Of a stretch of DNA of 64,000 nucleotides, positions 22,142 to 52,565 are shown piece by piece. The DNA is taken from contig CACEOY010000003.1 in assembly GCA_902561155.1 (NCBI GenBank), positions 62,001 to 126,000 of the forward strand, read 5' to 3'. The notes beneath the pieces are model-generated. The model was not told the DNA's origin. It did no database searches and saw only the letters and a program-made list of their open reading frames with translations. Position 1 is the first letter of the stretch, and every line of letters starts with the position of its first letter. A program made the position numbers and the translations under genes. The stretch comes from an uncultured Pelagibacteraceae bacterium (GTDB lineage: Bacteria > Pseudomonadota > Alphaproteobacteria > Pelagibacterales > Pelagibacteraceae).

Positions 22142-22846
22142 ATGAGAGAAATAATTCAAATCCGTAAACTAAGTTTATGGATTTTTTTCCTACCTTTGAT
22201 AGCTATAAATTTATGCTTGTTTATTTCTGTCAATCCAAGCCTTTTAGAAGGAACTATTTTTACTGTAGATCAAATAGGAAGGTCAGGTTTTTCGATTCCT
22301 TATTTAGATGGAAGTCTCTCAATAAGCAGAGCATCTAGGACTTTTCCTCAATATTTAATTTTTAAACCTTCGATGATTGTTACTGGCATTCTATTATTTT
22401 ACTATTGGAATAATAATAATAATTTAATTTGCAAAATGAGAAATACAGAGAATTTTAAATATAAATTTCGTTTATTTGGGATATTGTCAGCCATATTTTT
22501 AATTATTCATTCAATTTTTTTAGGAATTAAATTTGATATTCAACTTTATAAGTTATTCAGAAGAGTCGTATTACTTTTATTTATTATATTTGAATTGATT
22601 GCTCAAGGTATGCTGGTTTATTATTTATTTAATATAAAATCAAAAATTTCTGAAATTACGAATAAAAATATTCTATTAATTAAAATAATATTAGTTTCTA
22701 TTTTAGTTATTGTGGCTATAGCCAGTCTTCCTATATTAGTCACAAAAGGCAATACACATTTTAAACACGCTCTGGAATGGAATTATTTTGTTGGTGTAAT
22801 TACTTTTTACATGCTTACATTTTTTTTCTGGAGGAGAACCACTTAA
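22142..22846 (+). CDS. Membrane protein of unknown function, possibly Frag1/DRAM/Sfk1-like
   Basis: This 234-residue protein has six predicted membrane helices and no signal peptide beyond the first helix. A first loop with TVDQIGRSGFSIPYLDGSLSIS followed by ASRTFPQYLIFKPSM recalls the Frag1/DRAM/Sfk1 membrane family, whose bacterial members have no known role. I hold this only loosely. The gene follows the 27-residue basic gene by ten bases and ends directly at the hairpin of the structured RNA region. Confidence 0.62.
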   Translation: MREIIQIRKLSLWIFFLPLIAINLCLFISVNPSLLEGTIFTVDQIGRSGFSIPYLDGSLSISRASRTFPQYLIFKPSMIVTGILLFYYWNNNNNLICKMRNTENFKYKFRLFGILSAIFLIIHSIFLGIKFDIQLYKLFRRVVLLLFIIFELIAQGMLVYYLFNIKSKISEITNKNILLIKIILVSILVIVAIASLPILVTKGNTHFKHALEWNYFVGVITFYMLTFFFWRRTT

Positions 22847-23018
22847 ATTTCTAGGCTTTCGCCCAGAAATTTAGTAGTTTTGGTTCGTCGTTGTAGGCGC
22901 TACCGCCGAACCGCCCGATCAACCATTTTAGCGCTACTCAGTTGACCTTTCTGCCCTTTAAGCTTGAACCTCTCGGTTTTTCCTTAATTGGCCAGTTAAG
23001 AGTTGCCTCTTAATTAAT
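22845..23018 (-). ncRNA. Structured non-coding RNA candidate
   Basis: This 235-base gap is far richer in G+C than its surroundings and folds well only on the minus strand. In minus-strand order I see: TTAAGAG-GCAA-CTCTTAA; a long hairpin with GCC/GGC, TTAAG/CTTAA and AACC-GAGA-GGTT; GGTCAAC/GTTGATC around a 17-base loop; GGTTCG/CGAACC enclosing GGCG-GTAG-CGCC; and AAATTTCTGGGC-GAAA-GCCTAGAAATTT (22845-22872). Three loops are GNRA tetraloops on this strand, and two helices pair by G-U where the plus strand would have A-C. AGTAG in the third loop can pair with CTACT downstream. I find no long coding frame, tRNA arm, SRP motif or RNase P core. Identity unknown; ends approximate. Confidence 0.6.
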
Positions 23019-23082
23019 GTTATTAAATCACAAAAATTAAAATTGTGTATCACTTATTGGTTGACTTAAATTTGGTTGTGGA

Positions 23083-24213
23083 TTAGGTGGATAAATTATT
23101 ATTAAATGTCTTATCTATCCATCCCCCGCCTAAAACTTTATCCCCAGTCTCGTCATTTAGATAAAAAACACATGCTTGGCCAGGCGAAATACCGCTTTCA
23201 CCGTCTAAAATATTTATCTCGGCTTTATTAGAATTTATTTTTACTCTAGCTCTAAGTAGCTTTCCAGTAGATCTAACTTTTATTTTAATTTCATTTTTTA
23301 AATCATTTTCACTACCTAAAATGTTTAATTCTCTTAAAGTAACTTTATTTATTTTTAAAAACTCTTTTGGACCCACAATTACAGTATTTTTGTTGTTGTT
23401 TATCTTAATTACATAAAGGGGATCTTTATCTGCAATTTTAATTCCCCTCCTTTGTCCAATGGTATAATTTATAATCCCTTCATGTTGGCCTATTACATTG
23501 CCTTTAATATCTAAAATATTTCCAGGATTAAAAGACTCTGGCCTAAATTTTTTTATTACAGAGCTATAGTCCCCGTTAGGAACAAAGCAAATATCTTGGC
23601 TATCAGGTTTTTCAGCCACATTTAAATTAAGTTTTTTTGCTATATTTCTGGTTTCTATTTTTTCAATATCTCCTAAAGGGAATCTTAAAAAATCAAGTTG
23701 TGCTTGTGTTGTGCTAAACAAGAAATAACTTTGATCTCTGGAAAAATCTTTGGCTCTGTACATATAGCTTTTTCCATTATTTTGAATTCTCTTGATGTAA
23801 TGACCGGTTATTAAAGCGTCTGCTTTTAAATCTTTAGAATATTTAAACAAATCTCTAAATTTGACTGTTTGATTGCATTGTACGCAAGGTATAGGAGTTT
23901 CTCCTGAAGAATAGCTGTCTATAAAATTATCAATAACTTCTTGCTTAAATTTTTTTTGATAATATAAAATTTCATGATTTATGTTTAATTGCTCAGAGAC
24001 CCTTTTGGCATCCAAAATGTCCTGTCCTGCACAACATTGTCTTCCCTCTTTAGACTGCTTAGCATCATCATATAATTTTAAGGTAATTCCTGTAACGTCA
24101 TACCCTTCTTCTTTCATAAGACCTGCGACCACAGAAGAGTCTACTCCCCCAGACATAGCTACAACTACTTTAGTTTTTTTTTTTGGTTTATTTATTCCTA
24201 GTGAATTGATCAT
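23083..24213 (-). CDS. mnmA: tRNA-specific 2-thiouridylase
   Basis: This 376-residue enzyme activates and thiolates U34 of tRNAs for Lys, Glu and Gln. The N-terminal PP-loop [11 protein letters not shown] is at about residues 18-28, the catalytic cysteines appear in PCVQCNQ near residue 110 and DICFVPNG near residue 207, and the C-terminal beta domain ends with SPGQACVFY. Length and motifs are canonical. It is divergent from the DUF3553-cysQ pair, with a 37-base gap. Confidence 0.95.
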
Positions 24214-52378: not shown

Positions 52379-52530
52379 ACCCCATCTGTTTTGAAACCTG
52401 AGAGATTTACTCCTTCGGTGAGGCAGAGCCTGCTTTCCAGAGTTATTACGATAACGGTCCTTTTGCCTGAGAGTTTCCGGGGTGGTTGCTCCTTCGGCGC
52501 TATATAAAATAGACTCTCCCGTTACCAGTG
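52379..52530 (-). promoter_or_regulatory. Tandem glycine riboswitch upstream of gcvT
   Basis: On the minus strand the leader contains a first aptamer from GGGAGAG through GCGCCGAAGGAGCAA and GGAAACTCTCAGGC to AAAAGGACCG, then a second from ACTCTGGAAAGC through CACCGAAGGAG and AAATCTCTCAGGT to CAGATGGGG. These are the conserved glycine aptamer blocks in the normal order. The site ends 14 bases before the chosen gcvT start, so control of translation initiation is plausible. SAR11 glycine riboswitches before gcvT are described. Boundaries are approximate. Confidence 0.94.
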
Positions 52531-52565
52531 GACTTTCGTTCATTAAGGCTAAAAAGTCAATTATT

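Follow-up and report, generated by a model that had tools for sequence, protein, structure and literature searches.

The feature analyzed here lies in a 64,000-nucleotide stretch of contig CACEOY010000003.1, from an uncultured Pelagibacteraceae bacterium, hereafter called the window. It occupies the minus strand between mnmA and the gene for a convergent hydrophobic protein. The features of this region, listed from mnmA onward, are as follows.

23083 to 24213, minus strand: mnmA (tRNA 2-thiouridylase), upstream of the RNA on the same strand (Pfam PF03054, PF20259, and PF20258)
23077 to 23094, minus strand: two DnaA-box-like 9-mers (TTATCCACC and TAATCCACA) that overlap mnmA at its 3′ end
23048 to 23064, minus strand: conserved upstream element TCAACCAATAAGTGATA, with 0 mismatches to TCAMCNANNAAGTGATA
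23022 to 23030, minus strand: extended -10-like box TGATTTAAT, its TGnTAnnnT-type columns conserved in 70 distinct upstream regions
22837 to 23015, minus strand: predicted IMES-2 transcript over its whole length of about 179 nt, the promoter-like block and the terminator-like stem serving to place its ends
22880 to 23020, minus strand: full-length match to RF02035 (IMES-2), model positions 1 to 141 of 141
22996 to 23013, minus strand: hairpin 1, 7 bp with a GCAA tetraloop
22951 to 22995, minus strand: hairpin 2, two helices flanking an asymmetric internal loop, with a GAGA tetraloop
22917 to 22947, minus strand: hairpin 3, 8 bp with the 15-nt loop GAGUAGCGCUAAAAU
22929 to 22934, minus strand: loop 3 half, GCGCUA, complementary to 22897 to 22902
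22882 to 22912, minus strand: hairpin 4, about 9 bp, one position of which is never paired
22897 to 22902, minus strand: loop 4 half, UAGCGC, complementary to the GCGCUA of loop 3
22837 to 22879, minus strand: hairpin 5, an intrinsic-terminator-like stem with a GAAA loop, containing CUACU at 22873 to 22877
22142 to 22846, plus strand: convergent hydrophobic protein of 234 aa, unmatched in Pfam at E 0.001

A covariance model search of the window against Rfam, a check that the first-pass annotation had proposed, identified the minus-strand block as RF02035 (IMES-2) with a score of 158 bits against a gathering threshold of 54.7 (E = 1.6e-41). The feature is a member of this known RNA class, and it can no longer be called unassigned, as it had been when it was read from the letters; such a clear match to a described class was one of the outcomes that the first-pass annotation itself had named as refuting its proposal. 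It shares with the Rfam model the same four hairpins and nearly identical conserved letters over the full length, and the four-hairpin consensus of the family was recovered with covariation support in our alignments of IMES-2 homologues. Two differences from the model were found. First, the model stops short of the fifth stem described below. Second, its structure line as printed does not include the pairing between loops 3 and 4 that is supported here. The five remaining matches at 22700 to 23200 in an Rfam search at E up to 10 were all far under their own thresholds, and models of RNase P, SRP RNA, tmRNA, and 6S RNA gave no match at the locus, which agrees with the earlier finding of no SRP loop or RNase P core. 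Only RF02035 and a glycine riboswitch (RF00504, at 52445 to 52531 on the minus strand, 72.3 bits) were over threshold in the window. The RNase P gene of the source genome is on a different contig. IMES-2 is present in one copy in this genome, which is 83% complete, and among the genomes listed each positive genome had a single match. IMES-2 was reportedly first described in 2009 from ocean DNA as a structured RNA of unassigned function and is said to be an abundant marine transcript. Our literature search, with the original 2009 papers lying outside it, found no paper on IMES-2 in SAR11 and none naming IMES-1 or RF02035; a passage of a giant squid paper mentions IMES-2 as possible contamination. 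To the known class the present analysis adds a host range that includes a named strain, a promoter-like block, a terminator-like stem, a loop 3-loop 4 pairing, and a gap in the distribution of 6S RNA.

Folding of the minus strand from 22840 to 23024 gave -59.4 kcal/mol (z = -5.45), and none of 200 shuffled sequences folded equally well. With the strong covariation in relatives described below, this bears out the earlier proposal of a structured minus-strand RNA at about 22837 to 23020 with about five helices, now seen as about five hairpins. The proposal that the block folds only on the minus strand was overstated, as the plus strand also beats its shuffles, although less strongly (z = -3.83, 0 of 200). 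The three GNRA loops that had been noted are also present: GCAA caps hairpin 1, GAGA caps hairpin 2, and GAAA caps the terminator-like fifth hairpin.

Compensatory changes, which the first-pass annotation had suggested looking for, were scored in two alignments over the Rfam helices together with the pairing of loops 3 and 4. In the first, of 40 distinct homologues, 94.3% was paired and 24 of 45 pairs had changed on both sides. The second contained 53 matches (52 distinct) that we picked for diversity among the loci at hand; 93.8% of its cells were paired, both-side changes were found at 34 of 45 pairs, and none of 500 shuffles did as well on any of five measures. When the partners were slid by 1 to 3 columns, at most 41.6% of the cells were paired. 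Among the 52 distinct homologues, hairpin 1 was paired in 100% of cells, and its GNRA core loop was found in all 53 homologues. The two helices of hairpin 2 were paired in 93.9% and 91.0% of cells, with both-side changes at 12 of 15 pairs, and its loop was GAGA, GCAA, or GAAA in 46 of 53 homologues. The corresponding figures were 95.2% and 8 of 8 pairs for hairpin 3, and 88.2% and 7 of 9 pairs for hairpin 4.

Further analysis of the loops supported a conserved complementarity between loop 3 and loop 4, as judged from the alignment. This pairing was present in 296 of 312 cells (94.9%) in the 52 distinct rows, compared to 87.4% in shuffles, and both-side changes occurred at three of the six pairs, in 23 cells compared to 3.7 in shuffles. 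The percentage paired, the both-side cell count, and the covariation score were each reached by 0 of 500 shuffles. Two coarser measures, the number of both-side pairs and the number of pair types, were reached by 125 and 154 of 500 shuffles, respectively, because only six pairs were tested. In slid controls, which keep the relatedness of the rows whereas shuffles do not, at most 56.4% of the cells were paired and at most 12 cells had changed on both sides. The alignment itself had been made to a model without the loop 3-loop 4 helix. A good example of the co-variation is the set of loop combinations in the 53 rows: GCGCUA:UAGCGC was found in 28, GUACUA:UAGUAC in 4, and GUGCUA:UAGCAC, GUUCUA:UAGAAC, and UCGCUG:UAGCGA in 2 each. 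GCACUU:UAGUGC was found in 6 rows, with five of six bases paired in the tested register, and the other nine rows had five further combinations with one or two pairs broken. The co-varying cores were thus GCGC:GCGC, GUAC:GUAC, GUGC:GCAC, GCAC:GUGC, GUUC:GAAC, and UCGC:GCGA. When the loop columns were left out of tree building, loop class had to change nine times on the tree, and some of these changes were one-sided. The resulting kissing contact could be formed within one molecule or between two, and it offers a handle for probing and mutation. The purine riboswitch likewise has a neighboring pair of hairpins with loops that pair with each other. IMES-2 differs from it in having no evident closing helix or ligand pocket and no fixed downstream gene, and in carrying a promoter-like block and a terminator-like stem of its own.

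The first-pass annotation had overlooked the match to a curated family, the promoter-like block, and the loop 3-loop 4 pairing. The long-range contact that it suggested instead was a pseudoknot between AGTAG in a loop and CTACT downstream. The letters are present, but only 12 of 53 homologues allow an exact pairing of AGUAG in loop 3 with the stretch after hairpin 4, and 23 of 53 allow it when G-U pairs are counted. In the predicted fold the CUACU of the window copy forms the base of the fifth hairpin, and in 49 of 53 predicted folds at least four of six bases at this place belonged to the 5′ strand of that hairpin. With CUACU taken up in this way, the pseudoknot was rejected, and the supported partner of loop 3 is loop 4.

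The fifth stem looks like an intrinsic terminator in these predicted folds. A stem was found at this position in 52 of 53 homologues, and the remaining one ends at a contig edge. The stem is kept despite letter changes (locus L005 is one example), and the letters of its loop vary among homologues. A run of at least four U's follows the stem in 40 of 53 homologues; the window copy and several close relatives have no clear run.

On the other side of the RNA, the conserved element had a consensus of about TCAMCnAnnAAGTGATA across homologous loci. A strict form of this pattern matched 80 of 171 anchored loci and always ended 36 to 39 nt before hairpin 1. Most of the 91 loci that the strict pattern missed had a looser element by eye, and one (L102) had none. 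The 171 anchored loci include copies of one place, and the per-column figures are based on the 70 distinct matching regions. The same promoter-like block was present whether the neighboring gene was mnmA, an integrase, DUF2938, or a nuclease. A role for the upstream element as the operator of a regulon was considered and rejected. In 10 genomes, 63 matches with at most two mismatches were found, compared to 80 for a reversed control, and the second exact match in the source genome is within coding sequence; therefore, no regulon was found. An Rfam scan at three upstream-element matches in the source genome found nothing. DnaA-box-like letters (TTATCCAC, then TTMACA) also precede IMES-2 in several unrelated neighborhoods, by eye. 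The two 9-mers in the window raised the possibility of a replication origin, which was rejected, as there was no lasting sign change in the GC skew of the window at the RNA. With one mismatch allowed, 19 such 9-mers were found in the window compared to 20.5 in shuffles, so they are no commoner than expected.

The neighborhoods of IMES-2 were surveyed at 139 loci (133 distinct 210-nt regions), counting open reading frames of at least 100 aa. The nearest one upstream was mnmA at 69 loci, a phage-type integrase on the opposite strand at 43, DUF2938 at 14, and a nuclease at 4; at the other 9 loci it was something else or the contig ended. Unrelated neighborhoods, combined with a constant promoter-like block and a terminator-like stem, point to transcription on its own and to action in trans, which is the most likely mode of action on these sequence comparisons. 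Carriage by phages or viruses was also considered. A single pattern match in viral contigs was inside an open reading frame without a model match and was taken as chance, and phage records gave three short matches at E = 5.

At least 119 genome records matched IMES-2, and all were titled Pelagibacteraceae, Pelagibacterales, or Candidatus Pelagibacter except for one, Alpha proteobacterium HIMB114, a cultured strain. A model search with stricter filters found IMES-2 in 12 of 14 genera of the family and in 199 of the 297 family genomes searched; among the more complete of these it was found in 70 of 127. RF02035 was found in only 3 of 385 genomes across the class, all three of them within the Pelagibacteraceae, and in the sister family neither RF02035 nor a more sensitive model gave a match in any of 16 genomes. 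In three closed family genomes (G247, G337, and G428), mnmA is kept but IMES-2 is lacking; therefore, the RNA is not indispensable. These three had no model match beside mnmA, and none of their 15 upstream-element matches was followed by 80 nt as G+C rich as in the window copy (maximum 0.45 compared to 0.54), so relics were not seen. In G247, a convergent gene whose protein is 46% identical to that of the window follows mnmA after a few bases, with no RNA between them. Weak model matches in two other genomes (G557 and G477, 17.4 and 11.8 bits) did not have the conserved letters and were put down to chance. In the source genus, at least 17 genomes without a match were seen among those listed. 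In nine of the ten that were checked no mnmA was detected, and in the tenth it was cut by a contig end. Assembly gaps are therefore the simplest reading, and true absence was set aside for these ten genomes. Table 1 of PMC2704228 shows that in HTCC1062 the regions of more than 34% G+C without tRNA or rRNA all carry other named RNAs, so no place for IMES-2 is seen there as far as that table goes.

SAR11 bacteria are among the most numerous marine cells and have few regulators. The tie of IMES-2 to SAR11 genomes, including that of HIMB114, offers a host in which it could be tested. Based on the conservation described above, we consider it probable that IMES-2 in SAR11 is a stand-alone gene with its own promoter that yields a trans-acting RNA of about 180 nt, with a compact kissing-loop body that binds protein rather than pairing with messages. 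It would be transcribed from this promoter as a discrete RNA and adopt a compact shape, which the kissing loops and perhaps also the GNRA loops would hold in place. Protein binding is favored over message pairing since internal pairing takes up the loop letters that are most conserved. A protein-binding regulatory RNA shaped by kissing loops is thus the most likely description, and the likeliest partner would be a core machine, for example RNA polymerase or the ribosome.

Two more far-reaching proposals, that IMES-2 replaces 6S RNA in SAR11 or that it self-assembles through intermolecular kissing of loops 3 and 4, are doubtful even when taken together; if either were true, it would mean a new RNA-based control of a core machine in very abundant bacteria. 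In the first, IMES-2 would bind the housekeeping RNA polymerase and tune transcription with the growth state. 6S RNA itself is an RNA that binds RNA polymerase and templates a product RNA. The two RNAs are of similar length and single copy, and IMES-2 has its own promoter-like block. 6S RNA (RF00013) was found in 102 of 142 genomes of the class, compared to none of 197 from the order under stricter filters. Two of these 142 genomes belong to the Pelagibacteraceae, and both were without 6S. None of nine genomes of the order, including the source genome, gave a 6S match at E up to 10, and RNase P was detected in all nine. Passages of PMC6429828 mention both SAR11 and 6S RNA. Several observations weigh against a replacement. 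First, 6S RNA is one long hairpin with a central open bubble, whereas IMES-2 is a row of separate hairpins with a kissing pair, and RF00013 was absent among the matches at the locus at E up to 10. Second, the contrast between presence and absence amounts to one clade. Third, 40 of the 142 class genomes also had no 6S match, which means that a missing match is not rare. Finally, G247, G337, and G428 lack both RNAs, and IMES-2 is absent from all 16 sister-family genomes, one of which (G025) was also without 6S when tested. With one clade, the 40 class genomes without 6S, and genomes lacking both RNAs, the 6S gap counts as a lead rather than as evidence that IMES-2 replaces 6S RNA, and we regard the replacement as unlikely. 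The lack of a recognizable 6S RNA in the order nonetheless poses a concrete question of function, namely whether IMES-2 binds RNA polymerase.

The linker between hairpins 3 and 4 bears on the second proposal. It is 3 to 6 nt long (4 nt in 33 of 53 homologues), and by a rough estimate from standard helix dimensions this looks short for stems of 8 to 9 bp and a 6-bp loop helix placed end to end. Pairing between molecules, leading to dimers or larger rings, would avoid this, but side-by-side loop contacts inside one molecule occur in other RNAs, and there is only a small chance that IMES-2 forms such multimers. The parallel would be GOLLD and ROOL, bacterial RNAs reported to form multimers. They too are structured noncoding RNAs of unassigned function, and loop-contact multimers would be the likeness; IMES-2 is far smaller and is known here from its sequence.

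A small RNA whose conserved loops base-pair with messages and silence them has similarly low odds. It would fit the two loops of about 14 to 15 nt with very conserved letters, and the terminator-like stem with a U-run in most homologues is like that of many such RNAs. The letters of the two loops, however, can pair with each other and co-vary, and loops that each tracked an outside target would not be expected to do so.

Finally, a riboswitch or cis-acting leader would be expected at a fixed place before a conserved same-strand gene, and IMES-2 was not found in such a place, as its neighbors vary and the downstream gene in the window is convergent. At 30 of the 139 loci, the next open reading frame lies on the same strand immediately after the RNA and is a 6-O-methylguanine methyltransferase-like gene, and shorter forms of this gene may sit in some of the 28 loci at which the count took a later gene, but the convergent hydrophobic protein gene is next at 57 of 139 loci, including the window, a terminator-like stem follows the RNA in nearly all homologues, and the promoter-like block and the RNA travel together while the flanking genes change, so that a cis-acting leader for the next gene is very improbable. 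Read-through control of the methyltransferase-like gene at those 30 loci is possible. At L021, L024, and many relatives, IMES-2 is found between the phage-type integrase and 6-O-methylguanine methyltransferase-like genes, and at L019 and in HIMB114 (L088) it is flanked by a nuclease gene and an SRAP gene.
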